This document shows, one piece after another, positions 4,480 to 46,800 of a stretch of DNA of 64,000 nt. The notes beneath the pieces are model-generated. The model was not told the origin of the DNA. It ran no database searches and saw only the letters and a program-made list of their open reading frames with translations. Both the position numbers and the translations under genes were made by a program. The stretch is from Tetrahymena thermophila SB210 (taxonomy: Eukaryota; Ciliophora; Oligohymenophorea; Hymenostomatida; Tetrahymenidae), in the NCBI RefSeq assembly GCF_000189635.1, contig NW_002476396.1, forward strand, positions 1-64,000, written 5' to 3'. Position 1 is the first letter of the stretch; each line of letters begins with the position of its first letter.

Positions 4480-7400
4480 ATGTTAATATTCTGTAAGGAT
4501 AATCTCTTTTTTATTCATTAAATTAATGATTTATATAAATATTTATAGGCATCTTGCTTGCTTTAAGGATAGTCTAAGCATAGGATTGCTCATTCCTTCT
4601 CTCAAAACCTTAACCAACTACTCCACCTTTGGGTAAATTTTAAATTCTAAAATTATAAACTCAACCAACCATTAAAACTTAAATGAATTTTAGGCTACGA
4701 GTGTGTTATGAGCTCTTCAACAACATTCGATAATGCTTACGTTTAAGCGACAACCAAATATACAATATGGGCAGTAGCTGAAAGCAACCAACATACCAAT
4801 CCATAAATTCTTATAAGATAACCTCAATGTGCAAATCTTATTTAGCAAGATAGCTTGAACTATCCAGGCTTAGATATATGGTTTGATAGAAATAGCTAGA
4901 ATTTAAAAAATATGTACATTAGTTATGATTTATATACCAATCAACAACCAGGTTAGTTTACAATTAAAACAGGCTGGAATTAAGATTAATCATACAGTTA
5001 TACTTATCATTCTAATCAACTGACTTCCTCATAAATGGATGCTTGCGGTAAATTCAAAATAAGTTTATTTGAAAGTATAGATTTTACTAGCTTATCAACG
5101 AAATTTAGCGCATCTTTTATTATTTTTCGTGCCTATGATTCATTCAATAGCTCAATTTAAACTTGGTTATCAAATGTGTAGATTCTCGCTTACTACGAAG
5201 TAAATTTTATTGATTTGTTTCATTGTAGAAACTATTTTTTACTCCTATTCATTTTTTTTGATATAAATGTTAACAAATCTCCAGCTAATAATTTTATTCA
5301 CTACTTTATTAGTTTATTTTTATATTTTTTATTATAAAATTAATTTATTTTAGTTGTACTTTTAAACAATTTAGTTTTATTTTTTAGCCATATTAATTGC
5401 CACTAACTAACTAACTATATTATTTAATTAAAAATTTTTTAAAATAATTAAGTCTTTGGTTTTTAGATTTAATGATTTGATTTTTAATTATTTAATAGTG
5501 TCCAATTGGATGCTCGGGTTCTTGTCCTTCAGGAGTTTGTTCAGCTTGTTTAAGCGGCTACAATATTTAAAGTGGAAAATGTTTATTATAGTGCAATTTA
5601 GGCTAATACTTAAATTAAGATTAATCTTCAAAATAATCTTGCTTATCTTGCATTCCTAATTGCAATTAATGCGCTGATGGGAATACTTGTATAACTTGTG
5701 CTAATAGTTTTACCTACGCTTTCGTTAATGGCTAAAATAGGTGTTATCCATCATGTAGCTAATCTAACCAGTATATTGACTCAACAGGTTCATGCTAAAA
5801 TTGTATGTAATATTGCAGCAAATGCTCTTAAGCTAATAAATGCGACACTTGTTTATCAGGATTCACTTAGAGTGCTTCATTCGTTTGCTAATGTTAAGGT
5901 TTTGTCAACAACAGTAATCAATGCACTCCTTGCACTCCTCCTTGCTAAACTTGTGGTGATATCTCAACTACAAGCTGTCAATCCTGCATAAATAATTACT
6001 ACCTTGTTAAAGATTATCCAAATTAGTCATAATCTTTATGTCTTTAAATATGCCCTAATAATTATTAACTAATCAATAATACTTGTAAATTATGTATTTA
6101 GACTATTTACAACGATTGTTTTAATTGCCCTAAAACTTGTAGATCTTGCTCTCCATCTCAGATTAACAAATGTTAAGATTGTTATCCTGGAATGCAGCTT
6201 AATAGTAACGGCTTATGCGAGCCTTCACCCTAGCCTGGACTATAAGTAGATAGTAGAAATCTCAATTTTTATTATTGTAGCTATAATAATATAGCAGTTG
6301 TTTAGGCTACTTTTTCAAGCTCAAGTCCAACATTAACTCTAGAATTCGGTATTAATTTAGTTACTATACCTGGACTACAATGCAGTTAAATATTTGACTC
6401 TGTTACTCTAAATTTGTTAGGTTCTAGTACATGCTCTATCAGTTCATCATAAATCGTAGTGGCATTAAGTATATTTTATTAAATAATGAATTAAATATTA
6501 ATATAATATCTTCTTAAAAATAGGTTAAGATGCTAATTTAATGGTTAACTAAGTCATAACTATAACTACAATTGCTTAGGTACTTTAATTCTAAGGAGTC
6601 AGTTCTAAAATTGATACTATTTATCTGATTTCTTATGTTTAACAACCAGTTACTCCTTAAGTGAATGTTCTATACAATTAAGTTGTAAATTCTTGTGATG
6701 ACATCTAATTCTAAATTTAAACACCATAAAATGATGCAGGAAGAGGTTTCTTCAATATATAATGGATATTACCTAATTCATAAACTTTTAACCAAGAAAC
6801 TTTGAATAATTTAAGTGTTATTATAAATAGCGCAAATGCGCTTCAAAGTTTAACTTTGTTAATCCCAAAATACACACTTCCCATTAATACTAACATATCT
6901 ATTTAGCTCAAATACACTCTTAAAGTCTATTAAAGCAACACCTTGTCATTTACAACTAACAATTAATAAAAGAAGCAAATTATTCTAAGCCAAATTTAAA
7001 ATAATTATGCTCCAATATATAGGTAAACTAATTATTTTAAACATATTTACAAAAAATAAAATTATTTTTTTAATTATTTAAAATATAAATTTCCTTAAAA
7101 TGAATATGTTAATTTAATTCTATTTTATTTCAGTTACTTCAAACATTTCATTTTAAAAATATAATTTTTGAAAAAATCAATATTTATGATTTTTTAAATA
7201 AGTAAAAAAATAATTTTATTTTTTTATCATTAAATTTTTACTAATTTTTTAAATTAAATAGGTATATGGACTTGTAAATCACATATTTTTTTACTAGTTA
7301 ATAGTGTGATTAGCAAGGGATTCACTTTTTTTAAGATTAATTTGATATCTAAATCACTTCATTAGCTCTACCTTCTCTTAATAAAAGTTTAACTTAATTC

Positions 7401-10400
7401 AATGCTCAATAATTATAATTAGAAATACAACCTTATCTTATATCTGCTAGTACAAATTTAGATATTTAGGTAGAATTTATTTTTATTATGTTATTAATTA
7501 TTAACTATTTAATATTTTTTAGGTTGTTGCTTAAATTAGTGGCGATGCATCAATTAGCAATAAAAATACTTTATCTATTCCTTATACCCTATCGAAACTT
7601 TAGATTCTGATCTAAAATGGAGCTAATATGCTTGTTGATTATAAAAATAATCTTACTCTGATTGGTTTCGCAAGAGATTATGAAATTCAAGATCCTAACT
7701 CTCCATAAGGAATACAACTAAGTTGGCAGTGCAAGTCTTTGTAAGTATAAAATGGGGATGACAAATGTTACACATATAAAAAGGTAGTTTATGTACCATA
7801 AAATACTTAGAATATTACAATCAATGGTGGTACTTTCAACCCTTATTAAACCCTCAATTTCATTTTTTAAGGATCTAAAGATTCTAGAACTTCCGAGTCT
7901 AGCACTTTACTTATTTTTGCAGAGATAGATCTTCCTCCTCTCATAGTTATATTTGATGACCCTACATAATTATAATAAATTAACATAAACGAAGATATTC
8001 GAGCAACTCTTATTTATGGCTCAAATGTACCTTCGGATATTCTAACTTATGCTGGAGCAATTCTCTACAATAACTTTGTAGTTGGAGTAATTAAATTTGA
8101 TTATTACAAACTTAAATTTAGAATTTGGGATTACTTTTCTAATATAAAAGCAGATAATCTAATTGTTCAAATCAGATTTACTGTATATAATCCTGCCAAT
8201 ATAATGCCTAGTTTAAGCGTAACTAACTTTAATATAAACTTCCCTCCTTAAAATTGTGTTCTTTCTGTTACTCCTTTAAGTGGTCAGGCTTTAACTACCT
8301 AATTCACTATTCAATTTGATGGTTGCACAGCCATTAATAATCCTATAACTTACTAATTCTTCTATTATAACCAGACTTCTGATGTACAATAAGAAATTTT
8401 AATCCCTTAAAATATCCTAAGAAGATAATTACAAGATCAGAGTTTACAGTCCAAAATTATTACCAATCTCCCTTCAGGAAATATAGTAATTATGGGTCAA
8501 GCTATGGATTCTTACTTAGCTGTCTTTAATTCAACCATATAAGTGAATGTTTCTCCATTCTCGGGAGATGAGTAGACATTACTGAGTTTAATAGGTTCAG
8601 CTCTTTCTTAGAAAAATATAAATATAAATTAAATGCTCATTAATTTATGCATTATTGGTGAAGAATTAACTAAGAACAATGCACTTTACAATCTAGATTC
8701 TATTAACTTCAGAAAGTAAATGTTAATATAGTCTATTATAAGCTATTCAAATAGGCTTTCATCGAGTAATTCTTTTTTGCCTACTTATGGAAATAAAATT
8801 ATATCAGTTCTTCAAGCTTCCTTAAATAGTAAATATCAAACCCAAACTTACAAAGTCCTTAACTATGTTAGCACAACTTTGCAAAACTAACAGCAAAAAA
8901 TTGCGAATTAAAACAATAATAATAAATTATTTAATAATAACGATATAGTTCAATAGAATTTGGTTGATTGCTTTAAAATATTGAACTCAACTACCCAAGA
9001 GGCATCATAAACACTTTAGTAGCAAAGTAACAATAATGGTAAAAGGCTTTTAAAAAGTTAAGAAGATTATTCAAATACTTTTGGCTCTTTTAGAGCCCTT
9101 GCTTCTAATCAAACTATGTTGCAACAACAAATGGATTTATCAGACTAAGTAGGAAATCTATTAAACAACATTACCCTTCCCAATTAAGGAGACCTTTAAT
9201 TACAAGGAAATTTAATCTCTCTTAGCACAGAGTAAATAACATCTAAGAATCTTTAAAAATACATGTTCATTTTAAACTAGCCATAGTAAAATGATTCAAA
9301 CATTTATAATGTTGTCCTGACTAACTATACTTATAACCCTTTTATTAATACTGACGGCTTTTAGTCATATATAAATTAAGTTTAAAACACGACTCCTGGT
9401 ATACAAGTTTCTATAAATCCTGTGGTAAAACCGTCTATCTAAAATGTAAATAATACCTTTAGTTAAGGGCTTAATAATTCTCTTACTCTTTAATTTTCGA
9501 ATATAAAACCATCAAAATATAATTTAACTTGCTTGTAGCAACAATCTTAATCAAATTGGATTCAATCAGATTGTAAATTGATTTAATCTACCCTAAGTGG
9601 ATCATATATTTGTCTATGTAAAGATTAAAAACCCACTACTATAGCCGAAGATTTATAAGATCTTCTTGATAATAAAAATTTAAAAACTGCATTTGGTTCA
9701 TAGGGAATATAAAATATTTCTAATTTTACAACATTCTATGAGTATGCTGTATTTTGGATTCTGAGTTCAGTTACACTAATCCAAATAGGACTCTGCATTT
9801 ATGGTAATTAGCTAGATTCTAAGAATAAAAATACATTTGTAGGATCTATGTCAAAAATCAATCCAATATCTTTAGTAAATTTTGAAAATTTTGATTAAAA
9901 AATTACAGATGAATAATATCAACTACAACTAAATTAATAAAAATAAGAATCCGATAAATTATAATAAAAGGAATCGACTGTTTTTATAAATTACTAGCAA
10001 TAAAAATAATAATCTTAAAGAGTTACTCAATCAAATATTAACCTAAAAATTCCTGAATATGATTATCAAGGAAGTAAATTATTAGTTTAATAATAAGAAA
10101 ATGATATAAACAACCAAAAAGTTTAGAATTTATAGTCTTTATCTGATAACCAAAGCATTTAAAGCATATATCTGAGTTCAAAAGAAAATAAATAGGAATT
10201 AAAATTGGATTAACCGAACAGCATTACTGAATAAGTTAATGATAAGAAAACAAATAATATTGAAGATAAAGGCAAATAAAGTAAAGAATAATAAAAGGAT
10301 ATTGTTGAAATATTAAAAGGATCAAAAAATACTGAAAAATTAATGCAGACCTCATTCTTAAAAAAGATATTAATTTTTCACAATTTTAGCAGTATTTTCT

Positions 10401-10879
10401 TTGTTTATAGTAATTAAGAATCTAGACCACTAAGATTTACCATTTTTTACTTAAGAATAATTCACTCATTAAGCATATCAACGATATTTGATTAACAGTA
10501 CAATGAAGAATAGATTATTATAGTTTCACTTATAAATTCTGTTATCCTGATAGCAAGTGTTACGTTAATTAGATTTTTGTATAAATCTAGAAAAATATTT
10601 AAAATAATTGCTTTTTTACTTATGATAGGTTTGCTTATACTATATTATTATATAATTTTATCAATTGTGAGCGGTCAATCAAATGATTTCTCAAATAAAA
10701 GGATATCTTCTTTTTTTATAATGTTTGGAGTAGATTTCTTCATCTTATCAACATTAGTCTCTATAATTAACATATTTGCCTTTATTAAAATAGTTAAGAA
10801 TGCAATTAAAAACAAATTTATATTAAAATTATTAAGTTTATTATAAATATAAGATATTTTAGAAAATTTAGCTTTGTGA
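4480..10879 (+). CDS. Family A receptor-like protein A1 (Cys-rich, REJ, GPS-like, 5 TM)
   Basis: Predicted 1,878-aa surface protein. Exons: 4480-4492, 4549-4632, 4694-5199, 5499-6468, 6524-7022, 7262-7469, 7523-10879; the phases join without any TGA until 10877-10879. The start is supported because splicing exon 1 to exon 2 yields a signal peptide (MLIFCILLALRIVQA then QDC). Exon 3 (aa ~33-201) is a variable N-terminal domain ending in LAYYE. Exon 4 is a furin/growth-factor-receptor-like Cys-rich stretch (CPIGC...C..C, aa ~202-450). Exons 5-6 look REJ-like (C-x-D-I...RG...W, aa ~525-760). A GPS-like Cys motif (C...W....C...CxC) sits near aa 1430-1475, with NQKPT where a cleavable GPS has HLS/T. 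Helices lie near aa 1499-1520, 1731-1750, 1758-1780, 1787-1813 and 1823-1850, with a Q/N-rich loop after the first. The plan is polycystin-1-like but lacks PLAT. Ligand and function are unknown. Confidence 0.87.
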
Positions 10880-11231
10880 TGTTCTAAATAAAAGTTTTAT
10901 TATTGTTTGTCTTTATGTTAGTTTAAGATATGTACATTTAATATGTTAATTTCTGTAAGATTACATAGATCATGAATATTTTATGAATCTTGATTAAGAT
11001 AAATTATTCCCAAAATGCATAAATTTAGGCAGGTAATTTGTAATTATCTTAGTTTTTAAAAATTACCTTGGTTTTTATGATTTTCCAAAATATAAAATTT
11101 AATTGTAAAAATTGTAAATTTTAGAGTTAAAAAAAAAATTTGATGCCAAAATAAAAATTGTTTTAGTATTTAATAATTGATGAGTTTATGGTATTTATAA
11201 AAAATTTATAAATTTTGATTAATACTTCGAG
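10880..11231. other. Intergenic, no gene seen
   Basis: 3' flank of A1, similar for ~200 bases to those of the other A genes. Nothing further recognised. Confidence 0.6.
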
Positions 11232-21227: not shown

Positions 21228-24200
21228 ATGCTAATATTTTGTAAGGATAATCTTTCTTTTTTATTCATTAAATTAATGATACATATAAATATTTATAGGT
21301 ATTTTGCTTGCTTTAAAAATAGTCTAAGCATAGGATTGCTCATTACTTCTCTAAAAAACTAAACCAACTACTGCACCTTTGGGTAAATTTTAAATTCTAA
21401 AATTATAAATGCAACCAACTATTAAAACTTAAATGAAATTTAGGCTACTCCTGCAAAATTAGTACATCTACAACTTTCAATGCTACTTAAATTTAAAATA
21501 AAACCACGTATAAACTAAGGGCATATAATTTAAATAGTAGTTTCATTGATGCACATGCTAATATTAGATAACCTTAATGTGCGAATCTTATCTAAGCAAT
21601 CGATTATAATTATCCAAACTTAAATTTTGAGATTAATGGAGATAGCATGTTATAGTATATAAATAATATATACATAGGCTTTGATTTATATACCACTTAG
21701 TTATTTTAGGGATTAAATATTACTTCAAGTTGGAATTCATAAGCGTAATAAACTCTATCTTTCAATTCGTAAGATTTTTCTCAATAAATAGATGCTTGCA
21801 GTGTATATTATGTAAATGTATTCGCAAAAATAGATTTGACTAGCTAAACAAATAAATTTAGTTCAATATCGATTATTTTTACTAGTTTGGTTGATAATAA
21901 TACAGTGATTTTAATTTCGATTTCAAATCTATAGGTTCTCTTTTACTACAAAGTAAATTTTATTGATTTCTTCATTTTTTAGAAGTTATTTTTTACTCAA
22001 AGTCATTTTTTTAAAATAAATGCTAGCAAAGTTCCTGCTTATTATTTTATTCAGAACTTTATCTGTTAGTTTTAATATTTTTTTTAATAAAATTAATTTA
22101 TTTTCGCTGTACTTTTTAACAACTTAGTTTATTTTTTAGCCATTTTAATAGCCACTAATTATTTAATTAGATAATTTCAATATATTATTATGTATTTAGT
22201 TTTTAGATGTAATCATTTTGTTTTAAAATATTTAATAGTGTCCGATTGGCTGTATGGGTGACTGTCCTTCGGGGAATTGCCAATCTTGCTAAAGCGGCTA
22301 CGATCTTATCAGTGGTTCGTGTGTATTAAAGTGCGGTTAAAGATAATACTCGAAAGTAGTAGATGCCTCTTCATAATAAACTTGCTAACCCTGTCTTACT
22401 CATTGCAATGTATGTGCTAATGGAAATACTTGTACAAATTGTGATAGTGGTTATACTTTCGCTTTCGTTAATGGTTCAGCTTAGTGCTATCCATCATGTA
22501 GCTAACCTAGCCAGTATATTGATTCATAAGGTATTTGCCAAAATTGTATGTAATATTGCAGCAATTGCAACACAGCAACATTTTGTACGGCTTGTTTTAC
22601 AGGATTCACTTTGAATGCTAACAATGCTTCTTGTTAATGTAACGGTGTTATTAACAATAATATATGCAATCCTTGTACTTCTCCTTGTTAAACTTGTAAT
22701 GATAACTCAGTAAGCTGCAAAACCTGTATAAATAATTACTACCTTGTTAAAGATTATCCAAATTAGTCTTAATCTTAATGTCTTTAAATATGCCCTAATA
22801 ACTATTAACTAATCAATAATACTTGCTAATTATGTATTTAGACTATTTACAACAGTTGTTTTAATTGCCCTAGTACTTGTAGATCTTGCTCTCCATCTTA
22901 AATTAACAAGTGTTAAGATTGTTATCCTGGAATGCAGCTTAATAGTAATGGTTTATGCGAACCTTAGCCCTAACCCGGACTATAAGTAGATAGTAGAAAT
23001 CTCAAATTTTATTATTGTAGCTATAATAATATAGCAGTTATTTAGGCTACTTTTTCAAACTCAAGTCCAACATTAACTCTGGAATTCGGAATTAATTTAG
23101 TTACTATACCTGGACTACAATGCAATTAAATATTTGACTCTGATACTCTAAATTTGCTAGGCTCTAGTACATGCTCTATCAGTTTATCATAAATCATTGT
23201 GACATTAAGTATATTTTATTAAATAATGGATTAAATATTAATATAATTAATTCTTAAAAATAGGTTAAGATGCTAATTTAATGGTTAACTAAGTCATAAC
23301 TATAACTACCACTGCTTAGATACTTTAATTCTAAGGATTTAGTTCAAAAATTGATACTATTTATCTGATTTCTTATGTTTAACAACCAGTTACTCCTTAA
23401 GTGAATGTTCTATACAATTAAGTTGTAAATTCTTGTAATGACATCTAATTCTAAATTTAAACACCATAAAATGATGCAGGAAGAGGTTTCTTAAATATAA
23501 AATGGATATTATCTAACCCATAAAATTTCAGTTAAATAGTTATGCTGACCTTATTAGATATTATAACTACAGCTAACGATAATCAAAGTTTTACTTTGTT
23601 TATCCCAAAATTAACTATTCCCGTAAATACTGACATATCTATTAAGATCGCCTACACTCTCAAAGTCTCTTAAAGCAACACCTTGTCTTTTACAACCAAA
23701 TATTAATAAATGAAGCAAATTATTATTAGCCCATTTTAAAGTAAATAACCTCCAATATATAGGTAAAAAAGGCTAATTTTAACATATTTTCTACAATAAA
23801 ATTATTTTTTTTCTTGTTATTATTTAAAATAAAATTTCATTAATTTAATTAATTCTATTTTATTTCATTTTTAAAAAATATATTTTTTTAGCAAATCAAT
23901 ATAGCTATTTTCAGAAAATTATTTCTCGAGTTAGAAATATAGACTCAGTAAAATAAGAAATATTATTTAATATTATATTAAAAAAAATAAAATAAATAAA
24001 AAAAAGGTTTTGAAACAGGTTTCGAACCTGATAGAAGAAAAAAATAAAAAATGTTTAATCAAAGATGCAAATTAAATAATATATTAATTATTTTTTTTTA
24101 TATTACATTCTATCCCACCCAATATCCATAACTTAAATTAATATCTTTATAAATTAAATACAAAAAAATATTTTTTTTAGAAAAATAAAAAAATAATAAG

Positions 24201-27200
24201 TAAAACATAATTTTATCTTTTGTTAAATTATTATTTTTATTTTATTAATATTATTTAATTCAATAGGTATATGGACTTGTAAATCACATATTTTTTTACT
24301 ATCTAATCATGTGATTTGAATGGGATTCAATTTTTTTAAGATTAGATTGAAATCTAAATTACTTCATCAGTTTTACCTTCTCTTAACAAAAATTTAACTA
24401 AATTCGATGATCAATAAATATAATTAGAAATACAACCTTATCTTATACCTACTAGTACAAATTTAGATATTTAGGTAAAATTTATTTTTATTATTCTATT
24501 AACTATTAATTATTTAATATTTTTTAGGTTTCTGTGTAAATTAGTAGCGATGCATCTATTAGTAGTACAAATACTTTATCTGTAGCTTACACGGTACCAT
24601 AAATTTAGATTCTGATCTAAAATGGATCTGATATGCTTGTTAATTATAAAAACAATCTTACTCTAATTGGATTGGCACGAGATTATGAAATTCAAGATCC
24701 TAACACTTCACAAGGAATACAACTAAGTTGGCATTGCAGATCTTTGTAAGTATAAAATGGGGATAACTAATGTTACACATATAAAAAGGAAGTTTATGTA
24801 CCATAAAATACTTAGAATATTACAATCGATGGTGGTACTTTCAACCCTTATTAAATCCTCAGCTTCACTATTTAAGGATCTAAAGATTCTAGAACTTCCT
24901 AGTATAGCTCTTTAATTATTTTTGCAGAGACAGATCTTCCTCCTCTCTTGGTTGTATTTGATGACCCTAGGTAATTATAACAGATTAACATAAACGAAGA
25001 TATTCATGCAACTCTTATTTATGGCTCAAATGTACCTTCGGACATTCTAACTTATGCTGGAGCAATTCTCTACAATAATTTAGTTGTAGGAGTAATTAAA
25101 TTTGATTATTATAAACTTAAATTTAGAATTTGGGATTATTTTTCTGATATAAAAGCAGATAATCTAATTGTTCAAATCAGATTTACTGTATATAATCCTG
25201 CCAATATAATGCCTAGTTTAAGTGTAACAAACTTTAATATAAACTTACCTCCTTCAAATTGCGTTCTTTCTGTTACTCCTTCAAGCGGTTAGGCTTTAAC
25301 TACCTAATTCACTATTCAATTTAATGGTTGCGTAGCCCTTAATAATCCTATAACTTACTAATTATTCTATTATAACCAGACCTCTGATGTACTAAAAGAA
25401 ATTTAAATCCCATAGAATATCCTAAGAAGATAATTACAGGATTAGAGTTTACAGTCCAAAATTATTACCAATCTCCCTTCAGGAAATATAGTAATTATGG
25501 GTCAAGCTATGGATTCTTACTTAGCTGTCTTTAATACTACTATTTAAGTGAATATTTCTCCATTCTAGGGAGATGAGCAGACATTATTGAGTTTAATAGG
25601 TTCGGCGCTTTCATAGTAAAATATAAAAGTAAATTAAATGCTCATTAATTTATGCATTATTGGTGAAGAAATATCTAAGAACACTGCTCTTTACAATCTA
25701 GATTCTATTAACTTCAGAAAGTAATTGTTAGTATAGTCAATTACAGTGCTTACGGTGAATTTTTACAAAAAATATTTAATATTACATATAAATAGAAAGA
25801 TATACAAATTTGTTAATATAATCAATATTCAGTCATACAACCTTATAATTCAATGCATTTCTATAATCTTGAACTCATAGAACAAATCTCCCTCTACAAA
25901 ACGGTATATGGATATAGGGTTTTATACTTGAATTGAGTATAGATAATATTTAAATAATTTTGTAAAAATTGACCGTAAGCACTGTATAAGCTATTCAAAT
26001 AGGCTTTCAAGTAATTCTTTTTTGTCTACTTATGGAAATAAAATTATAGCAGCTCTTCAAGCTTCCATAAATAATAATTATCAAACCTAAAGTTATAAAG
26101 TCCTTGAATATGTTAATACAACTTTGCAAAACTCACAGCAAAAAATTGCAAATTAAAAGAATTATAATAAATTATTTAATAATAACGATATTGTTCTATA
26201 GAATTTGATTGATTGCTTTAAAATATTGAACTCAACTACCCAAGAGGCATCATAAGACTCTTTTAGATCCCTTTCTTCTAATCAAACCATGTTGCAACAA
26301 CAAATGGATTTATCAGATTAAATAGGAAATCTATTAAACAACATTACCCTTCCCAATTAAGGAGACCTTTAATTACAAGGAAATTTAATCTCTATAAGCA
26401 CAGAGTAAATAACATCTAAGAATCTTTAAAAATACATGTTTATTTTAAACTAGCCATCATAAAATGATTCAAACATTTATAATGTTGTCTTGACTAACTA
26501 TTCTTATAACCCTTTTATTAATACTGAAGGCTTTTAGTCATATATAAATTAACTTTAAAACACGACTCCTGGTATATAAGTTTCTATAAATCCTGTGGTA
26601 AAACCGTCTATCTAAAATGTAAACAATACCTTTAGTTAAGGGCTTAATAATTCTCTTACTCTTTAATTTTCGAATATAAAACCATCAAAATATAATTTAA
26701 CTTGCTTGTAGCAACAATCTTAATCAAACTGGAATCAATCAGATTGTAAATTGATTTAATCTACACTAAGTGGATCATATGTTTGTCTATGTAAAGATCA
26801 AAAACCCACTACTATAGCCGAAGATTTATAAGATCTTCTTGATAATAAAAATTTAAAAACTGCATTTGGTTCATAGGGAATATAAAATATTTCTAATTTT
26901 ACAACATTCTATGAGTATGCTGTATTTTGGATTCTGAGTTCTGTTACACTAATCCAAATAGGACTCTGTATTTATGGTAATTAGCTAGATTCTAAGAATA
27001 AAATTACATTTGTAGGATCTATGTCAAAAATCAATCCAATATCTTTAGTAAATTTTGAAAATTTTGATTTAAAAATTACAGATGAATAATAGCAACTACA
27101 ACTAAATTAATAAAAATAAGAATCAGATAAATTATAATAAAAGGAATCTATTGCTTTTATAAATTACTTGCATTAAAAATAATAATCTTAAAGAGCTACG

Positions 27201-28040
27201 CAATCAAATATAAACCTAAAAAGACCTGAATATGATTATCAAGGAAGTAAATTATTTATTTAATAATAAGAAAATGATATAAACAACCAAAAAGTTTAGA
27301 ACTTTTAGTCTTTATCTGATAACCAAAGCATTTAAAGCATATATCTGGGTTCAAAAGATAATAAATAGGAATAAAAATTGGATTAACCTAACATCATTAC
27401 TGAATATAAAAAAACAAATAATATTGAAGACAAAGAACAAAGTAAAGAATAATAAAAGGATATAGTTGAAATATTAAAAGGATCAAAAAATACTCAAAAA
27501 TTAATGCAGACCTCTTTGTTGAAAAAGATATTAATTTTTCACAATTTTAGCAGTATTTTCTTTGTTTACAGTAGTTAAGAATCTAGACCACTAAGATTTA
27601 GCATTTTCTACTTAAGAATAATTCACTCATTAAGCATATCAACGATTTTTGATTAACAGTACAATGAAGAGTAGATTATTATAGTTTCACTTATAAACTC
27701 TGTTATTGTGATAGCAAGTGTTACGTTAATTAGATTTTTGTATAAATCTAGAAAAATATTTAAAATAGTTGCGTTTTTGGTAATGATGGGTTTACTTGTA
27801 CTATATTATTATATAATTTTATCAATTGTAAGTGGTCAAATAAATGATTTCTCAAATAAAAGGATATCTTACTTTTTTATAATGTTTGGAGTAGATTTCT
27901 TGATCTTATCAACATTAATCTCTATAATTAACATATTTGCATTTATTAAAATAGTTAAAAATGCAATTAAAAATAAATATATATTAAAATTATTAAGTTT
28001 ATTATAAATATAAGATATTTTAGAAAATTTAGCTTTGTGA
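21228..28040 (+). CDS. Family A receptor-like protein A2, interrupted by a TA-flanked element
   Basis: Exons: 21228-21240, 21299-21382, 21444-21952, 22239-23208, 23264-23762, 24267-24474, 24528-28040 (TGA 28038-28040). Domain order as in A1: signal peptide MLIFCILLALKIVQA, variable exon 3 ending LFYYK, Cys-rich exon 4, REJ-like exons 5-6, stalk, GPS-like motif, five helices. A 241-bp inverted-repeat element sits in exon 7 at 25744-25984. With its 2-bp duplication it adds 243 bases, so the downstream frame is unchanged, but it brings one in-frame TGA at 25929-25931. Without it the protein would be 1,850 aa. Relative to A1, a 24-codon stretch is missing after TQEAS. Intron 5 is unusually long (504 bp). 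Whether a full protein is made depends on whether the element is removed from DNA or RNA. Confidence 0.82.
25744..25984. mobile_element. MITE-like or IES-like element, 241 bp, 27-bp TIRs, TA duplication
   Basis: The left end (25744-25770, starting CAGTGCTTACGGT) and right end (25958-25984, ending ACCGTAAGCACTG) are inverted repeats with one mismatch over 27 bases. TA flanks both sides (25742-25743 and 25985-25986). A0, A1, A3, A4 and A5 have a single TA at this place, so the empty site is known. There is no transposase ORF. A TA duplication with CAGTG ends fits Tc1/mariner-type non-autonomous elements. TA-bounded inverted-repeat segments are also typical of some ciliate internal eliminated sequences. 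Confidence 0.9.
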
Positions 28041-28529
28041 TTTTCTAAATAAAAGTTTCATTATTGTTTGTCTTTATGTTAGTTTAAGATATGAACATTT
28101 AATATTTTAATTTCTGTAATGCATAGATCATGAAATTTTATGAAAATGTATAAATTTAGGAAAGTATATTCGAAATATCTTAGTCTTTAAAAATTACCAT
28201 GGTTGGTTTTTTATATTTTCCAAAATATTAAATAATAATTGTAAAAATTGTTAATTTTAGAGATTTTAAAAAATTTTCTTTAAAAAAATAACATAAATAA
28301 AAGTTTTAAGTATTTTGATTATTTTTCGTAAGCATTTTATAATCAAATATAAAGAAATGAATTAAGATGAAGAATAATAAAATGTTCATATTTAATTAAC
28401 TTATTAATTAATATAAAAATCATTTGAAATATCACAAATCATGCTATAATTAATGGTTGGTTTGTGATATTTTAAATAAAAAAAAGAGCAGCTATATTTA
28501 TTAAACAATTTTCAATAATTTAAATTAAA
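28041..28529. other. Intergenic, palindrome copy 2
   Basis: 3' flank of A2, then from about 28310 the same block that precedes the 18460 pseudogene, including the palindrome at 28424-28475. No gene seen. Confidence 0.6.
28424..28475. repeat. Palindrome, copy 2
   Basis: Left arm TTGAAATATCACAAATCA is identical to that at 18364. The right arm (28458-28475) differs at two bases, so the stem is slightly decayed. Confidence 0.7.
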
Positions 28530-31379: not shown

Positions 31380-34300
31380 ATGTTAATATTTTGTAAGGAT
31401 AATCTTTCTTTTTTATTCATTAAATTAATGATATATGTAAATATTTATAGGCATTTTGCTTGCTTTAAAAATAGTCTAAGGATAGGATTGCTCATTCCTT
31501 CTCTCATAACCTAAACCAACCACTGAACCTTTGAGTAAATTTTAAATTCTAAAGTTATAAACGCAACCAACTATTAAAATAAATGAAATTTAGGCTACTC
31601 ATGCATAATTAGTACATCTAAAGTTTTCGATGCTGCTTTAATTTCAGATAAAAGGACGTATAACTTAGGGCAAGCTAATTTAGAAAATGGCTCTTTCAGC
31701 GAGGTATTTGTATCTACTAATTCACCTTAATGTACTCTTATTAAAATAAGAACTCCATTACAACCAAGCGTATATTTTGAGATTAATGGAGATAGCATGT
31801 TATAGTATATAAATAATATATACATAAGCTTTGATTATTTATGTAATGAACCTTAAAGATTAAATATTACTTCAAGATGGAATTCATAAGAGTAATAAAC
31901 TATATCTTTCAATTTTAAAGATTAGAACTTTCCATTACTACCTGATTGCCCTGCTTTACCTAGTAAAAATATATTCGTAAATATAGATTTGACTAGCTTA
32001 ACAAATAAATTTAGTTCAAGTACCATTTTTATTACTCAATTAAGATAAGATAATACACCGACTATAATTTTTATTACAAATCTATAGGTTCTGATTTACT
32101 ACAAAGTAAATTTTATTGATTTTTTCATTTTAGAAGTTATTTTTTACTCATAGTCATTATTTTAACATAAATGCTAGCAAAGTTCCAGCTTATTATTTTA
32201 TTCAGAACTTTATCTGTTAGTTTTTATATATTTTTTATTAAATTTATTTATTTTTGCTGTACTTTTAAACAACTTAGTTTATTTTTTAGCCATTTTAATA
32301 GCCACTAATTATTTAATTAGATAATTTGAATATATTATTATGTCTTTTGTTTTTAGATGTAATCATTTTCTTTTAAAATATTTAATAGTGTCCGATTGGC
32401 TGCATGGGTGACTGTCCTTCGGGGATTTGCCAATCTTGCTAAAGCGGCCACGATCTTATTAGTGGTTCGTGTGTATTAAAGTGTGGTTAAAGATAATACT
32501 TGAAAGTAGAGGCCTCTTCATAATAAACTTGCTAACCCTGTCTTACTCATTGCAATGTATGTGCTAATGGGAATACTTGTTCAAATTGTGATAGTGGTTA
32601 TACTTACGCTTTCGTTAATGGTTCATTTTAGTGTTATCCGTCATGTACCTAACCTAGCCAGTATATTGATCTAAAAGGTAATTGCCTAAACTGTATGAAA
32701 TATTGCAGCAATTGTGACACAGCAACTATTTGTACGGCTTGTATTACAGGATTCACCTTGAGTGCTAATAATGCTTCTTGTTAATGTAACGGTTATATTA
32801 ACAATAATCAATGCCTTCCTTGTACTTCTCCTTGTTAAACTTGTAATGATAACTCAATTACAAGCTGCCAATCCTGTATTAGTAATTACTACCTTGTTAA
32901 AGATTATCCAAATTAATCATAATCTTAATGTCTTTAAATATGCCCTAATAACTATTAACTAATCAATAATACTTGCTAATTATGTATTTAGACTATTTAC
33001 AGCAGTTGTTTTAATTGCCCTAGTACTTGTAGATCTTGCTCTCCATCTTAGATTAATAAGTGTTAAGATTGTTATCCTGGAATGCAGCTTAATAGTAATG
33101 GTTTATGCGAACCTTAGCCCTAAACCGGACTATAAGTAGATAGTAGAAATCTCAAATTTTATTATTGTAGCTAAAATAATATAGCTGTTGTTTAGGCTAC
33201 TTTTTCAAGCTCAAGTCCAACATTAATTCTGGAATTCGGAATTAAATTAGTTAGTATACCTGGGCTACAATGCAATTAAATATTTGACTCTGTTACGCTA
33301 AATTTGCTAGGCTCTAGTACATGCTCTACCAATTTATCATAAATCATAGTGACATTAAGTATATTTTATTAAATAATGAATTCAATATTAATATAATATA
33401 TTCTTAAAAATAGGTTAAGATGCTAATTTAATGGTTAACTAAGTCATAACTATAACTACCACTGCTTAGATACTTTAATTCTAAGGAGTTAGTTCAAAAA
33501 TTGATACAATTTATTTGATTTCTTATGTTTAGCAACCAGTTACTCCTTAAGTGAATGTTCTATACAATTAAGTTGTAAATTCTTGTAATGACATCTAATT
33601 CTAAATTTAAACACCATAAAATGATGCAGGAAGAGGTTTCTTAAATATAAAATGGATATTATCTAACCCATAAAATTTCAGTTAAATAGTTATGCTGACC
33701 TTATTAGATATTATAACAACAGCTAACGATAATCAAAGTTTTACTTTGTTTATCCCAAAATAAACTATTCCCGCAAATACTGACATATCTATTAAGATCG
33801 CCTACACTCTCAAAGTCTCTTAAAGCAACACCTTGTCTTTTACAACCACATATTAATAAAAGAAGCAAATTATTATTAGCCCATTTTAAAGTAAATAACC
33901 TCCAATATATAGGTAAAAAAAGCTAATTTCACATATTTTCTACAATAAAGTTATTTTTTTCTTGTTATTATTTATAATAAAAATTTCAATAATTTAATTA
34001 ATTCTATTTTATTTCATTTTTAAAAAATATTTTTTTTTAGCAAATCAATAGTAATAATTTTTTAAATTAAAAAAATTTTAAATGAAATAATATATTAATT
34101 ATTTTTTTTATATTACATTCTACCCCACCCAATATATCCATAACTTAAATTAATATCTTTATAAATTAAATATTAAAAAATATTTTTTTTTAGAAAAATA
34201 AAAAAATAATAAGTAAAACAGAATTTTATCTTTTGTTAAATTATTATTTTTATTTTATTTATATTATTTAATTCAATAGGTATATGGACTTGTAAATCAC

Positions 34301-37300
34301 ATATTTTTTTACTATCTAATCATGTGATTTGAATGGGATTCAATTTTTTTAGGATTAGATTGAAATCTAAATTACTTCATCAGCTCTACCTTCTCTTAAC
34401 AAAAGTTTAACTAAATTCGATGATCAATAAATATAATTAGAAATACAACCTTATGCTATACCTCCTAGTACAAATTTAGATATTTAGGTAAAATTTATTT
34501 TTATTATTCTATTAACTATTAATTATTTAATATTTGTTAGGTTTCGGTGTAAATTAGTAGCGATACATCTATTAGTAGTACAAATACTTTATCTGTAGCT
34601 TACACGGTACCATAACTTTAGATTCTGATCTAAAATGGAGCTGATATGCTTGTTAATTATAAAAACAATCTTACTCTAATTGGATTGGCACGAGATTATG
34701 AAATTCAAGATCCTAACACTTCACAAGGAATACAACTAAGTTGGCATTGCAGATCTTTGCAAGCATAAAATGGGGATAACTAATGTTACACATATAAAAA
34801 GGAAGTTTATGTACCATAAAATACTTAGAATATTACAATCGATGGTGGTACTTTCAACCCTTATTAAATCCTCAGCTTCACTATTTAAGGATCTAAAGAT
34901 TCTAGAACTTCCTAGTATAGCTCTTTAATTATTTTTGCAGAGACAGATCTTCCTCCTCTCTTGGTTGTATTTGATGACCCTAGGTAATTATAACAGATTA
35001 ACATAAACGAAGATATTCATGCAACTCTTATTTATGGCTCAAATGTACCTTCGGACATTCTAACTTATGCTGGAGCAATTCTCTACAATAATTTAGTTGT
35101 AGGAGTAATTAAATTTGATTATTATAAACTTAAATTTAGAATTTGGGATTATTTTTCTGATATAAAAGCAGATAATATAATTGTTCAAATCAGATTTACT
35201 GTATATAATCCTGCCAATATAATGCCTAGTTTAAGTGTAACAAACTTTAATATAAACTTACCTCCTTCAAATTGTGTTCTTTCTGTTACTCCTTCAAGTG
35301 GTCAGGCTTTAACTACCTAATTCACTATTCAATTTAATGGTTGCGTAGCCCTTAATAATCCTATAACTTACTAATTATTCTATTATAACCAGACCTCTGA
35401 TGTACAAAAAGAAATTTAAATCCCTTAAAATATCCTAAGAAGATAATTACAGGATTAGAGTTTACAGTCCAAAATTATTACCAATCTCCCTTCAGGAAAT
35501 ATAGTAATTATGGGTCAAGCTATGGATTCTTACTTAGCTGTCTTTAATACTACTATATAAGTGAATGTTTCTCCATTCTAGGGAGATGAGCAGACATTAT
35601 TGAGTTTAATAGGTTCGGCGCTTTCATAGTAAAATATAAAAGTAAATTAAATGTTCATTAATTTATGCATTATTGGTGAAGAAATAACTAAGAGCACTGC
35701 TCTTTACAATCTAGATTCTATTAACTTCAGAAAGTAAATGTTAGTATAGTCGATTATAAGCTATTCAAATAGGCTTTAGAGTAATTCTTTTTTGTCTACT
35801 TATGGAAATAAAGTTATAGCAGCTCTTCAAGCTTCCATAAATAATAATTATCAAACTTAAAGTTATAAAGTCCTTGACTATGTTAGTACAACTTTGCAAA
35901 ACTCACAGCAAAAAATTGCAAATTAAAACAATAATAATAAATTATTTTAGAATAACGATATTGTTCTTTAGAATTTGATTGATTGCTTTAAAATATTGAA
36001 CTCAACTACCCAAGAAGCATTATAAACGCTTTAGTAGCAAAGTAACAATAATGGTAAAAGACATTTAAAAAATTAAGAAGATTATTCAGACTCTTTTAGA
36101 TCCCTTTCTTCTAATCAAACCATGTTGCAACAACAAATTGATTTATCAGACTAAATAGGAAATCTATTAAACAACATTACCCTTCCCAATTAAGGAGACC
36201 TTTAATTACAAGGAAATTTAATCTCTATAAGCACAGAGTCAATAACATCTAAGAATCTTTAAAAATACATGTTTATTTAAAACTAGCCATCATAAAATGA
36301 TTCAAACATTTATAATGTTGTCTTGACTAACTATTCTTATAACCCTTTTATTAATACAGAAGGCTTTTATTCATATATAAATTAACTTTAAAACACGACT
36401 CCTGGTATATAAATTTCTATAAATTCTGTGGTAAAACCGTCTATCTAAAATGTAAACAATACCTTTAGTTAAGGGCTTAATAATTCTCTTACTCTTTAAT
36501 TTTCGAATATCAAACCATCAAAATATAATTTAACTTGCTTGTAGCAACAATCTTAATCAAACTGGACTCAATCAGATTGTAAATTGATTTAATCTACCCT
36601 AAGTGGATCATATGTTTGTCTATGTAAAGATCAAAAACCCACTACTATAGCAGAAGATTTATAAGATCTTCTTGATAATAAAAATTTAAAAACTGCATTT
36701 GGTTAATAGGGAATATAAAATATTTCTAATTTTACAACATTCTATGAATATGCTGTATTTTGGATTCTGAGTTCAGTTACACTAATCCAAATAGGACTCT
36801 GTATTTATAGTAATACACTAGATTCTAAGAATAAAATTACATTTGTAGGATCTATGTCAAAAATCAATCCAATATCTTTAGCAAATTTTGAAAATTTTGA
36901 TTAAAAAATTACAGATGAGTAAAATCAACTACAACTAAATTAATAAAAATAAGAATCAGATAAATTATAATAAAAGGAATCGACTGTTTTTATAAATTAC
37001 TTGCAATCAAAATAAGAATCTTAAAGAGCTACGCAATCAAATATAAATCTAAAAAGACCTGATGATAATTATCAAGGAAGTAAATTATTTGTTTAATAAT
37101 AAGAAAATGATATAAACAACCAAAAAGTTTAGAACTTGTAGTCTTTATCTGATAACCAAAGCATTTAAAGCATATATCTGAGTTCAAAAGATAATAAATA
37201 GGAATAAAAATTGGATTAACAGAACATCATTACTGAATAAGCTAATGATAAAAAAACAAATAATATTGAAGACAAAGGCAAACAAAGTAAAGAATAATAA

Positions 37301-37885
37301 AAGGATATAGTTGAAATATTAAAAGGATCAAAAAATACTCAAAAATTAATGCAGACCTCTTTGTTGAAAAAAATATTAATTTTTCACAATTTTAGCAGTA
37401 TTTTCTTTGTTTACAGTAGTTAAGAATCTAGACCACTAAGATTTAGCATTTTCTACTTAAGAGTAATTCACTCATTAAGCATATCAACGATTTTTGATTA
37501 ACAGTACAATGAAGAGTAGATTATTATAGTTTCACTTATAAACTCTGTTATTCTGATAGTAAGTGTTTCGTTAATTAGATTTTTGTATAAATCTAGAAAA
37601 GTATTTAAAATAGTTGCTTTTTTGGTAATGATGGGTTTGCTTATACTATATTATTATATAATTTTATCAATTGTGAGCGGTCAATCAAATGATTTCTCAA
37701 ATAAAAGGATATCTTCCTTTTTTATAATGTTTGGAGTAGATTTCTTCATCTTATAAACATTAGTCTCTATAATTAACATATATGCATTTATTAAAATAGT
37801 TAAAAATGCAATTAAAAACAAATTTATATTAAAATTATTAAGTTTATTATAAATATAAGATATTTTAGAAAATTTAGCTTTGTGA
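31380..37885 (+). CDS. Family A receptor-like protein A3
   Basis: Predicted 1,876 aa. Exons: 31380-31392, 31451-31534, 31594-32105, 32389-33358, 33414-33912, 34280-34487, 34541-37885 (TGA 37883-37885). Signal peptide MLIFCILLALKIVQG then QDC. Exon 3 is the most divergent of the A2-A5 set: its middle third aligns poorly, while the shared NGDSMLQYINNIYI core and the end VLIYYK are kept. Exon 4 carries the Cys-rich repeats, exons 5-6 the REJ-like region, and exon 7 the stalk, GPS-like motif (no HLS/T), five helices and Q-rich loop. No interruption is seen. A small 3-codon loss lies in the variable stalk segment. Splice sites match those of its paralogues in position and phase. Role: probable ciliary or cell-surface receptor, by architecture only. 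Confidence 0.87.
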
Positions 37886-38339
37886 TGTTCTAAATAAAAG
37901 TTTCATTATTGTTTGTCTTTATGTTAGTTTATAATATGAACATTTAATATGTTAATTTTTGTAATGCATAGATCATGAAATTTTATGAATCTTGAGTAAG
38001 GTAAACTATATCTCAAAATGCATAAATTTAGGAAAGTATTTTCGAATTATTTTAGTTTTTAAAAATTACCATGGTTTTTTATATTTTCCAAAATATTAAA
38101 TAATAATTGTAACCGACCCCAGACCCAATCTAAAAAATTTTATGTATGCCCCGTGGGGCAGTTGTCTCATTTTATATTATATATTTTTATTCAATCAGAT
38201 TTAATTACTTTTTTGAATTTTCTTATTTCTACTTAGCTTAACTAAACAATTAATTAATTAAAAACGAATGTGTGTAATTAAATTCGATTTACTTATATAG
38301 TCGTTTCCAAAAGACGAAATTTTTGAATGGCATTTTGCT
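37886..38339. other. Intergenic with a GC-rich patch
   Basis: 3' flank of A3, then a segment of ~220 bases not seen elsewhere in the window (about 38110-38325), beginning with a GC-rich patch. It ends at GAATGGCATTTTGCTATAAA, which is fused directly to the pseudogene leader (TCCAATTAGGCATACAG). In the other two units those two sequences are far apart, so this is a rearrangement junction. Confidence 0.6.
38112..38175. other. GC-rich patch with inverted repeat
   Basis: AACCGACCCCAGACCCAATC followed ~25 bases later by GCCCCGTGGGGC, a 5-bp inverted repeat around GT. It stands out strongly against the surrounding AT-rich DNA. No known motif recognised with confidence. Confidence 0.55.
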
Positions 38340-40892: not shown

Positions 40893-43800
40893 ATGTTAAT
40901 ATTTTGTAAGGATAATCTTTCATTTTTATTCATTAAATTAATGATAAATGTAAATATTTATAGGCATTTTGCTTGCTTTAAAAATCGTCTAAGCATAGGA
41001 TTGCTCATTCCTTCTCTAAAAAACTTAACCAACTACTACACCTCTGGGTAAATTTTAAATTCTAAAATTATAAACGCAATTAACTATTAAAACTTAAATG
41101 AAATTTAGGCTACTCCTGCAAAATTAATACATCTGTAAATTTCAGTGATGCTTAAATTTAAGATACAACCAAGTATAAATTAAGGGCAGCTAATTTTTAT
41201 GGCAATGTCACGGGCGCAATAGTTAGTATTAGATAACCTACGTGTGATAATTTAATTTAAACAAATGATCAAAATTATCAAAGCATAAATTTTGAGATTA
41301 ATGGAGATAGCACGTTATAGTATATAAATAATATATACATAAGCTTTAATTTATATAGCCCCATTAAACCTGTATTATTAAATTTTACTTCAAGTTGGAA
41401 TTCATAAGCGTAATAAACTCTATCTTTAAATGTTTCAGATTACCCCCGTGATTAACCACCTACTTGCCATTATTTTCGTGTATAAAATGTATTCGCAAAT
41501 ATAGATTTGACTAGCTTAACAAATAAATTTAGTTCAAGTTCCATTCTTATTACTAGATTTTTAGATTAAACTAATATGGCTTTAATTTGGGTTTCAAATT
41601 TATAGGTTCTGATTTACTACAAAGTAAATTTTATTGATTTTTTTATTTTAGAAGTTATTTTTTACTCATAGTCATTTTTTTAACATAAATGTTATATATT
41701 TTTTTTATAAAATTAATTTATTTTCGCTGTACTTTTAAACAATTTAGTTTATTTTTTAGCCATTTTAATAGCCACTAATTATTTAATTAGATAATTTGAA
41801 TATATTATTATGTCTTTTGTTTTTAGATGTAATCATTTCTTTTAAAATATTTAAAAGTGTCCGATTGGATGCATGGGTGATTGTCCTTCGGGGAATTGCC
41901 AATCTTGTTAAAGCGGCTACGATCTTATCAGTGGTTCGTGTGTATTAAAGTGCGGTTAAAGATAATACTCGAAAGTAGTAGATGCCTCTTCATAATAAAC
42001 TTGCTAACCCTGTCTTACTAATTGCAATTTATGTTCTAATGGGAGTACTTGTACAAATTGTGATAGTGGTTATACTTATGCTGTCGTTAATGGTTCAAAT
42101 TAGTGCTATCCATCTTGTACCTAACCTAACCAGTATATTGATCCATAAGGTAATTGCCAAAACTGTATGTAATATTGCAGCAATTGCAGCACAGCAACTT
42201 ATTGTACAGCTTGTTTTACAGGATTCATTTTGAATGCTAACAATTCTTCTTGTTAATGTAACGGTTATATTAACAATAATCAATGCCTTCCTTGTACTTC
42301 TCCTTGCTAAACTTGTACTGATAGCTCAATTTCAAGCTGCCAATCCTGTATAAATAATTACTACCTTGTTAAAGATTATCCAAATTAGTCTTAATCTTAA
42401 TGTCTTTAAATATGCCCTAATAACTATTAACTAATCAATAATACTTGCAAATTATGTATTTAGACTATTTACAACAGTTGTTTTAATTGCCCTAGTACTT
42501 GTAGATCTTGCTCTCCATCTTAGACTAACAAGTGTTAAGATTGTTATCCTGGAATGCAGCTTAATAGTAATAATTTATGCGAACCTTCGCCATAACCCGG
42601 ACTATAAGTAGATAGTAGAAATCTCAACTTTTATTATTGTAGCTAAAATAATATAGCAGTTGTTTAGGCTACTTTTTCAAGCTCAAGTCCAACATTAACT
42701 CTGGAATTCGGAATTAATTTAGTTCCTATACCTGGGCTATAATGTAATTAAATATTTGACGCTGTTACGCTAAATTTGCTAGGCTCTAGTACATGCTCTA
42801 TCAATTTATCATAAATCATTGTCACATTAAGTATATTTTATTAAAAGTTGAATTCAATATTAATATAATATATTCTTAAAAATAGGTTAAGATGCTAATT
42901 TAATGGTTAACTAAGTCATAACTATAACTACCACTGCTTAGATACTTTAATTCTAAGGAGTTAGTTCAAAAATTGATACAATTTATTTGATTTCTTATGT
43001 TTAGCAACCAGTTACTCCTTAAGTGAATGTTCTATACAATTAAGTTGTAAATTCTTGTAATGACATCTAATTCTAAATTTAAACACCATAAAATGATGCA
43101 GGAAGAGGTTTCTTAAATATAAAATGGATATTATCTAACCCGTAAAATTTCAGTTAAACAGTTATGCTGACCTTATTAGATATTATAACTACAGCTAATG
43201 ATAATCAAAATTTTACTTTGTTTATCCCAAAATAAACTATTCCCGCAAATACTGACATATCTATTAAGATCTCCTACACTCTCAAAGTCTCTTAAAGCAA
43301 CACCTTGTCTTTTACAACCACATATTAATAAAAGAAGCAAATTTTTATAAGCCAAATTTAAAATAATTATCCTCCAATATATAGGTAAAAAAAATATTTA
43401 CAAAAATAAAATTATTTTTTTCTTGTTATTATCTATGCAAATTAAATAATAAATTAATTATTATATTACATTCTATCCCTCCCAATATCCATAACTTAAA
43501 TTAATATCTTTATAAATTAAATATTAAAAAATATTTTTTTAGAAAAATAAAAAAATAATAAGTAAAACATAATTTTATCTTTTGTTAAATTATTATTTTT
43601 ATTTTATTTATTTAATTCAATAGGTATATAGACTTGTAAATCACATATTTTTTTACTATCTAATCATGTGATTTGAATGGGATTCAATATTTTTAAGATT
43701 AGATTGAAATCTAAATTACTTCATCAGCTCTACCTTCTCTTAACAAAAGTTTAACTAAATTCAATGAACCATAAATATTATTAGAAGTACAACCTTATGC

Positions 43801-46800
43801 TATACCTGCTAGTATAAATTTAGATATTTAGGTAAAATTTATTTTTATTATGCTATTAACTATTAATTATTTAATATTTTTTAGGTTTCTGTGTAAATTA
43901 GTAGCGATGCATCTATTAGTAATACAAATACTTTATCTGTACCTTACACGGTAACATAACTTTAGACTCTGATCTAAAATGGATCTGATATGCTTGTTAA
44001 TTATAAAAACAATCTTACTCTAATTGGATTGGCACGAGATTATGAAATTTAAGATCCTAACACTTCACAAGGAATACAACTAAGTTGGCATTGCAGATCT
44101 TTGTAAGTATAAAATGGGGATAATTAATGTTACACATATAAAAAGGAAGTTTATGTACCATAAAATACTTAGAATATTACAATCGATGGTGGTACTTTCA
44201 ACCCTTATTAAATCCTCAGCTTCACTATTTAAGGATCTAAAGATTCTAGAACTTCCTAGTATAGCTCTTTAATTATTTTCGCAGAGACGGATCTTCCTCC
44301 TCTCTTGGTTGTATTTGATGACCCTAGGTAATTATAATAGATTAACATAAACGAAGATATTCATGCAACTCTTATTTATGGCTCAAATGTACCTTCGGAC
44401 ATTCTAACTTATGCTGGAGCAATTCTCTACAATAATTTAGTTGTAGGAGTAATTAAATTTGATTATTATAAACTTAAATTTAGAATTTGGGATTATTTTT
44501 CTGATATAAAAGCAGATAATATAATTGTTCAAATCAGATTTACTGTATATAACCCTGCCAATATAATGCCTAGTTTAAGTGTAACAAACTTTAATATAAA
44601 CTTAGCTCCTTCAAATTGTGTTCTTTCTGTTACTCCTTCAAGTGGTCAGGCTTTAACTACCTAATTCACTATTCAATTTAATGGTTGCGTAGCCCTTAAT
44701 AATCCTATAACTTACTAATTATTCTATTATAACCAGACCTCTGATGCTTTAAAAGAAATTTAAATCCCTTAAAATATCCTAAGAAGATAATTACAGGATT
44801 AGAGTTTACAGTCCAAAATTATTACCAATCTCCCTTCAGGAAATATAGTAATTATGGGTCAAGCTATGGATTCTTACTTAGCTGTCTTTAATACTACTAT
44901 TTAAGTGAATGTTTCTCCATTCTAGGGAGATGAGTAGACATTATTGAGTTTAATAGGTTCGGCACTTTCATAGTAAAATATAAAAGTAAATTAAATGCTC
45001 ATTAATTTATGCATTATTGGTGAAGAAATAACTAAGAACACTGCTCTTTACAATCTAGATTCTATTAACTTCAGAAAGTAAATGTTAGTATAGTCGATTA
45101 TAAGCTATTCAAATAGGCTTTAGAGTAATTCTTTTTTGTCTACTTATGGAAATAAAGTTGTAGCAGCTCTTCAAGCTTCCATAAATAATAATTATCAAAC
45201 TTAAAGTTATAAAGTCCTTGACTATGTTAATACAACTTTACAAAATTCACAGCAAAAAATTGCAAATTAAAACAATAATAATAAATTATTTAACAATAAC
45301 GATATTGTTCTATAGAATTTGATTGATTGCTTTAAAATGTTGAACTCAACTACCCAAGAGGCATCATAAGACTCTTTTAAATCCCTTTCTTCTAATCAAA
45401 CCATGTTGCAACAACAAATGGATTTATCAGACTAAATAGGAAATCTATTAAACAAAATTACCCTTCCCAATTAAGGAGACCTTTAATTACAAGGAAATTT
45501 AATCTCTATAAGCACAGAGTAAATAACATCTAAGAATCTTTAAAAATACATGTTTATATAAAACTAGCCATCATAAAATGATTCAAACATTTATAATGTT
45601 GTCTTGACTAACTATTCTAATAACCCTTTTATTAATACTGAAGGCTTTTAGTCATATATAAATTAACTTTAAAACACGACTCCTGGTATATAAGTTTCTA
45701 TAAATTCTGTGGTAAAACCATTTATCTAAAATACAAATAATGCCACAGTTAGTTAAGAGTTTAATAATTCTCTTAGTCTCTAATTTTCGAATATTAAACC
45801 ATCAAAATATAATTTAACTTGCTTGTAGCAATAATCTTAATCTAACTGGACTCAATCAGATTGTAAATTGATTTAATCTACCCTAATTGGATCATATACC
45901 TGTGTTTGTAAAAATCAAAATCCCACAACAATTATAGAAAATTTAAAAGATCTTCTTGATAATAAAAATTTAAAAACTGCATTTGGTTCATAGGGAATAT
46001 AAAATATTTCTAATTTTACAACATTCTATGAGTATGCTATATTTTGGATTCTTAGTTCAGTTACACTAATCCAAATAGGACTCTGCATTTATGGTCATTT
46101 GCTAGATTTTAAGAATTAAATTACATTTGTAGGATCTATGTCAAAAATCAATCCAATATCTTTAGCAAATTTTGAAAATTTTGATTAAAAAGTTACAGAT
46201 AAGTAAAATCAACTGCAACTAAATTTATAAAAATAAGAATCAGATAAATTATAATAAAAGGAATCGACTGTTTTTATAAATTACTTGCAATCAAAATAAG
46301 AATCTTAAAGAGCTACGCAATCAAATATAAACCTAAAAAGACCTGAATATGATTATCAAGGAAGTAAATTATTTATTTAATAATAAGAAAATGATATAAA
46401 CAACCAAAAAGTTTAGAACTTATTGTCTTTACCTGATAACCAAAGCATTTAAAGCCTATATCTGACTTCAAAAGATAATAAATAGGAATAAAAATTGGAT
46501 TAACCCAACATCATTACTGAAAATAAAAAAACAAATAATATTGAAGACAAAGGCAAACAAAATAAAGAAGAATAAAAGGATATAGTTGAAATATTAAAAG
46601 GATCAAAAAATACTCAAAAATTAATGGAGACCTCTTTGTTGAAAAAGATATTAATTTTTCACAATTTTAGCAGTATTTTCTTTGTTTACAGTAATTAAGA
46701 ATCTAGACCACTAAGATTTAGCATTTTCTACTTAAGAGTAATTCACTCATTAAGCATATCAACAATATTTGATTAACAGTACAATTAAGAGTAGATTATT

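Follow-up and report, generated by a model that had tools for sequence, protein, structure and literature searches.

The long 3′ exon of A2, which belongs to a tandemly arrayed family of REJ-domain genes in Tetrahymena thermophila, is interrupted by a 241-bp element with terminal inverted repeats and a duplicated TA target site. We regard it as probable that this is a Tc1/mariner-type DNA transposon, short and non-autonomous (either MITE-like or derived by internal deletion), which inserted into A2 in the germline and has not been eliminated. This explanation is founded on the target-site duplication, the inverted repeats, the empty sites in related genes and the presence of the element in an assembly of macronuclear type. 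Among the readings offered in the original prediction, that of a MITE which escaped elimination is the best supported, and its description of a MITE-like, TA-duplicated insert in a ciliate host was likewise borne out.

The analysis covered a window of 64 kb, that is, the whole stretch of DNA under study, and positions refer to this window unless a contig is named. The element occupies 25744–25984 (+ strand), between a left TA (25742–25743) and a right TA (25985–25986), neither TA copy being assigned a strand; these coordinates confirm those first proposed, and the paralogue empty sites have a single TA. The left terminal inverted repeat of 27 bp lies at 25744–25770 (+ strand) and the right at 25958–25984 (− strand). 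Alignment of the first 27 bp inside the TA at both ends matched 26 of 27 positions, in agreement with the one mismatch predicted. Homology extends up to 25790 on the left and 25938 on the right, and the arms 25742–25790 and 25938–25986 are 84% complementary over 49 nt. The repeats start with CAGTG, which we take to be like the ends of Tc1.

When the 64-kb window was scanned for 27-nt inverted repeats that pair at 26 or more positions and span up to ~830 nt, two pairs were found, the A2 element and an A/T-only palindrome at 7051/7224, as compared with 0, 0 and 0 pairs in three order-1 Markov controls. The end 13-mer, with up to two mismatches allowed, occurred twice in the window, both times as the element's own ends (mean of shuffle controls 0.16; two of 100–200 shuffles also reached two). 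RNA folding of 25742–25986 gave a long hairpin (−62.6 kcal/mol, z −7.6, 0/200 shuffles as good), which arises because of the inverted repeats of the segment. No Pfam match was found in the 241 bp in six frames up to E = 10, and a transposase fragment within the element was thereby ruled out. The A/T-only inverted repeat elsewhere in the window (7051–7224; 27 nt, 26 matched) lies upstream of the A1 long exon.

For the long 3′ exon of A2 (24528–28040, + strand), the start is inferred from the AG of the A/T-rich stretch before it, and the end is the next in-frame stop. The REJ-domain array to which it belongs occupies 1–2403, 7150–11120, 24050–28290, 34060–38120, 43420–47390 and 50590–54640 of the window. 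The family has further members near C148:72848 and on contigs C195 and C202. Since C148 begins within copy A0, the array may extend past the assembly break. Alignment of A0–A5 revealed that the 243 bp (the element with one TA copy) are the only A2-private insertion in the long exon. The frame is kept across them, as had been claimed, and runs on to 28040. The other indels that set the A2 exon apart from the paralogues have lengths divisible by three; one of them, a 9-bp gap at 27405, was split by the aligner. There is also an in-frame length difference near 26254 of A2, where A0, A1 and A5 have 72 bp more, and A3 63 bp more, than A2 and A4 (9010–9081 in A1, 36025–36087 in A3).

The insert was absent at all 15 family sites read (eight in the window and seven elsewhere, family matches that do not span the insertion site being left out of the count), and at 13 of the 15 the TATAA context was preserved with one TA. 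The five paralogues for which an empty site had been reported each have one TA, at 87–88 in A0, 8737–8738 in A1, 35755–35756 in A3, 45099–45100 in A4 and 52271–52272 in A5. In diverged copies within the window the flanks are joined at one TA at 18834, 28894 and about 38702. Outside it, empty copies with one TA were found twice on C195 and three times on C202, with small gaps beside the site in the third C202 copy. The two most diverged relatives (64% identity), at C148:72700–73900 (near 73,400) and C161:102900–104300, do not have the insert either; their context differs, and the C161 copy is without the TA at the insertion site.

The assembly looks macronuclear from its total span and from the telomeres of C4. 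It comprises 101,022,631 bases in 445 contigs, and published sizes for T. thermophila are 104 Mb for the macronucleus (MAC) and 157 Mb for the micronucleus (MIC) (PMC6547420). C4A2 telomere runs are present at both ends of C4 (465,941 bp), one at the start and the other reaching from 465,612 almost to the last base. A germline contig as the default was rejected on these grounds, and the suggestion that the contig is germline is therefore unsupported. The window lies on C148 (206,733 bp); no telomere was found in the end stretches read of C148, C5 and C284, and C148 might still be a germline contig that has strayed into the assembly.

A genome search with the element ends identified two further loci, each with one end. 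The 23-bp end, with up to three mismatches allowed, matched four places genome-wide, all exactly, and the reversed-pattern control matched none; the four are the two ends of the A2 element and two one-ended remnants. The remnants are lone right-type ends at C284:293918–293973 (56/56 bp identical) and C5:108305–108345 (41/41 bp identical), these lengths including the TA, and both are broken inside the terminus. Minus its remnant, the C284 surroundings aligned at 79–80% with nearby sister repeat units; since these units are without the remnant, the C284 piece is an insertion that lost its other end. The C284 and C5 remnants indicate that a family of mobile elements shares these ends.

No second full copy and no copy of the element interior were found elsewhere in the 101-Mb assembly, in a search that skips very common words, and at E ≤ 5 the left 199 bp of the element matched nothing else apart from the element's own right arm. 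Viral contigs gave 0 matches to the element end. A DDE_3 profile search of the assembly yielded eight stretches among 17 scored candidates, six of them above the curated cut-off and none on C148. The 14-bp terminus, with up to three mismatches, was found in the ~3 kb around 0/8 of these loci, which speaks against any of the eight being the autonomous partner; a source would be expected in the germline genome. One DDE_3 stretch, at C116:487051–487479 (158 aa), is open under the ciliate code, having only TAA and TAG inside; it is possibly a domesticated or retained transposase.

The element is filed as Tc1/mariner-type by its ends and TA target site only: the inverted repeats lie directly inside the TA, and the TA duplication is matched by empty sites. 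It has the form of a MITE in being short and non-coding (241 bp, no Pfam match), with terminal inverted repeats and a target-site duplication. Besides the one complete copy, the macronuclear-type assembly holds two fragments with a single end each, and because multiple full copies are lacking there we use the label 'MITE-like'. The A2 element resembles Tc1/mariner-derived MITEs in length, inverted repeats, TA duplication and the lack of a protein family in six frames, but differs from them in that the assembly contains one complete copy only and that no source transposase was identified.

We propose that the element inserted at a TA in germline A2 after A2 had split from its tandem sisters. 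It would have been mobilised in trans by a transposase whose gene lies elsewhere, probably in the part of the genome restricted to the germline. Being short, nearly unique, genic and outside eliminated regions, the element probably does not attract the small-RNA/heterochromatin elimination machinery, and would consequently stay in the macronucleus. A published 'Scenario 3' describes a naive transposable element (TE) that is newly inserted outside internal eliminated sequences (IESs) and outside regions producing small RNAs, and is retained in the new macronucleus (PMC5666084). The A2 element probably represents naive-TE retention of this kind. Counting against retention of a transposed element are the lack of a complete sister copy and of any transposase found with these ends, as well as the state of the A2 frame downstream of the insert.

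That frame shows no sign of decay as yet. Private substitutions in A2, expressed as synonymous to non-synonymous, were 5:4 upstream of the insert (415 codons) and 9:12 downstream (677 codons), as compared with 2:5, 7:3 and 3:1 upstream and 7:14, 7:30 and 9:14 downstream in the sisters A3, A4 and A5, respectively; these counts are small, part of the A2 branch predates the insertion, and random change without selection is expected to be ~23% synonymous. Possibly the insertion is recent, or else the protein downstream is still produced. As a separate observation within 25142–26586, A2 is closest to A3 (98%) left of the insert and, when the whole length of the right-hand side is considered, to A4 (97%) right of it. 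This switch in similarity suggests gene conversion among array members near the insertion site.

A different history of the DNA, which we consider unlikely, is that the germline holds a longer Tc1/mariner transposon of which the 241 bp are the residue, elimination having cut inside the element and fused both ends in the exon. The C284 and C5 loci keep one end only (56 and 41 bp), as expected from cuts within elements. This agrees with a published bias of retained sequence towards TE ends (PMC5182062), and no other copy of the element interior was found in the assembly. However, no coding-exon scar of this type is described in the available text of PMC5182062, where the coding-region IESs are TTAA-bounded, piggyBac-ended and precisely excised, and no internal junction is recognisable in the 241-bp sequence. 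That the Tc1/mariner-type transposon in germline A2 is longer, and loses its interior during macronuclear development through cuts inside the element that leave both ends in the exon, seems to us quite improbable. If true, A2 would contain a TA-bounded, Tc1/mariner-derived elimination site in a coding exon, of a sort not described for Tetrahymena in the available text of the literature cited here, and the length of the scar could vary between cell lines, switching A2 between in-frame and truncated forms. The lone right ends on C284 and C5 are good sites at which to seek germline elements shortened by DNA elimination.

Under the preferred explanation, retention of a short transposon, the message would carry the insert. 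The insert contains one in-frame TGA, the sole type of stop under code 6, at 25929–25931 (+ strand), as had been noted; it lies ~62 codons into the element. In the original prediction the almost complete read-through was considered unusual, a view that our controls do not uphold. When the 243 bp were shuffled 5000 times by dinucleotides, an in-frame TGA was absent from 1177 of the resulting sequences and occurred once in 1921, a total of 3098 (62%) with one at most; the near-openness of the insert is thus at chance level, because TGA is the sole stop codon. An insert length divisible by three is a one-in-three event. The openness, being at chance level in shuffles, is no proof of a functional 81-codon exon, and this candidate was set aside.

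The consequences for the protein were judged from A5, the long frame of which matches the REJ domain PF02010 at residues 68–501 (E = 2.8e-34). In the A5 frame of 1256 codons the insertion site falls at codon 544, past the REJ match, and the four hydrophobic peaks found in this frame (880, 1136, 1169 and 1202) are all C-terminal to it. The mRNA would meet the TGA at 25929, and the A2 protein is probably truncated, with the REJ region kept and the C-terminal hydrophobic segments lost. Such truncation may be tolerable given the intact sister copies. Decoding of the TGA as selenocysteine was examined through Rfam: no match to a known RNA or SECIS element was obtained at the gathering score in 25500–26250, the only range searched, and a SECIS could sit in a distant 3′ UTR.

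The insert might alternatively be removed from the RNA, either through host splice-like sites that it pushed 282 nt apart, creating a new intron, or through the element ends acting as splice sites. We judge this rather doubtful; it concerns the fate of the message and is compatible with a retained element. The splice model was derived from telomerase exons on C60 that match chain 6d6v_A, named telomerase reverse transcriptase (TERT) by its depositors; 6d6v is presumably the structure of T. thermophila telomerase. The spliced reading was compared over 1044 of the 1117 residues of the chain (all but the last 73) and reproduced every one, which marks the host as T. thermophila or something extremely close to it; it contained 18 GT–AG introns, the shortest of 47 nt. 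Their donors are all GTA, and their acceptors are TAG in 13 cases, AAG in four and CAG in one.

In this model, a candidate cryptic intron identified by score only (25721–26002, + strand; 282 nt, in frame; donor GTAATT, acceptor AAATAG) has both sites in host exon sequence, and its use would remove the entire element together with 39 bp of host sequence. Its donor at 25721 scored 8.7 bits and its acceptor at 26002 scored 6.8 bits, a sum of 15.5 that exceeds the leave-one-out scores of all 18 TERT introns (3.2–14.6). The same sites are only 39 nt apart in the sisters (282 minus 243), under the length of the shortest TERT intron. Nevertheless, one of 25 exon control stretches scored 16.6 and three more scored 14.8–14.9, the controls being consecutive 370-bp pieces of A1, A3 and A5 that include sister versions of the candidate sites. 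The four control stretches at 14.8–16.6 show that such splice-like pairs are common in this A/T-rich DNA, and these comparable scores leave low odds for a new intron. Splice sites inside the inverted repeats (GTGCTT and GTGAAT) scored poorly and are unlike the GTA donors of TERT.

It is very unlikely, in our view, that the insert is a TA-bounded IES which is normally excised from the coding exon and of which the assembly holds a retained or germline-contaminant copy. The termini TACAGTGC do come close to the Tc1/mariner-like end consensus of Paramecium IESs (TAYAGYNR; PMC3464196), the last position excepted, excision at the TA would exactly restore the sister reading frame, and the end stretches read of C148 carry no telomere, as would suit a germline contaminant. 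The exonic IESs known in T. thermophila, however, are TTAA-bounded with piggyBac-like ends, both the six of PMC5182062 and the twelve of later work cited by PMC6547420 and PMC5666084. Those that depend on Tpb1/Tpb6 (PMC5182062, PMC5666084, PMC6547420) are, like the A2 element, short inserts with inverted repeats in coding exons, but they have TTAA flanks and CACTTT repeats and are excised, whereas the A2 insert has TA flanks and CAGTGC ends and is present in the macronuclear-type assembly. Judged by its ends, the A2 element is not of this known TTAA/piggyBac kind, and a Tpb1/6-type exonic IES was rejected. Presence in such an assembly also argues against complete elimination. Moreover, no empty allele of A2, and no second contig with A2 flanks around an empty site, was found among the 40 of 42 candidates scored, the next best left-flank match being 98%. 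An assembly chimera, which had been raised as a possible refutation, was rejected, since it is not expected to yield a TA duplication and inverted repeats exactly at a site that is empty in 15 relatives.

In T. thermophila ~95% of putative TE sequence is removed and ~1 Mb stays in the macronucleus, where in some instances it is preferentially the ends of TEs that are retained (PMC5182062). The pieces on C284 and C5 fit such remnants as surviving ends; the A2 element differs in having both ends and both TA copies, and in lying in a coding exon. Like the A2 element, Paramecium IESs are TA-bounded, have a Tc1/mariner-like end consensus and occur in coding sequence (PMC3464196). They belong, however, to another genus, as do the MITE-derived IESs of Blepharisma (PMC9942856), and the A2 element is without sign of excision. 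Introners (PMC9860276) are also transposon-like exon inserts that can become introns, but the A2 element is a single copy and its best candidate splice sites lie outside it. No report of the element was found among titles and abstract openings on Tetrahymena MITEs, mariner elements, IESs and exons, and a search of papers for its 12-letter end sequence gave 0 matches.

With both ends preserved in an exon and many empty sister sites to serve as controls, the A2 element is well suited as a natural test of how a new transposon can evade elimination guided by small RNAs. A2 is also a case for asking how the cell copes with such an insertion, whether by truncation, splicing or excision.
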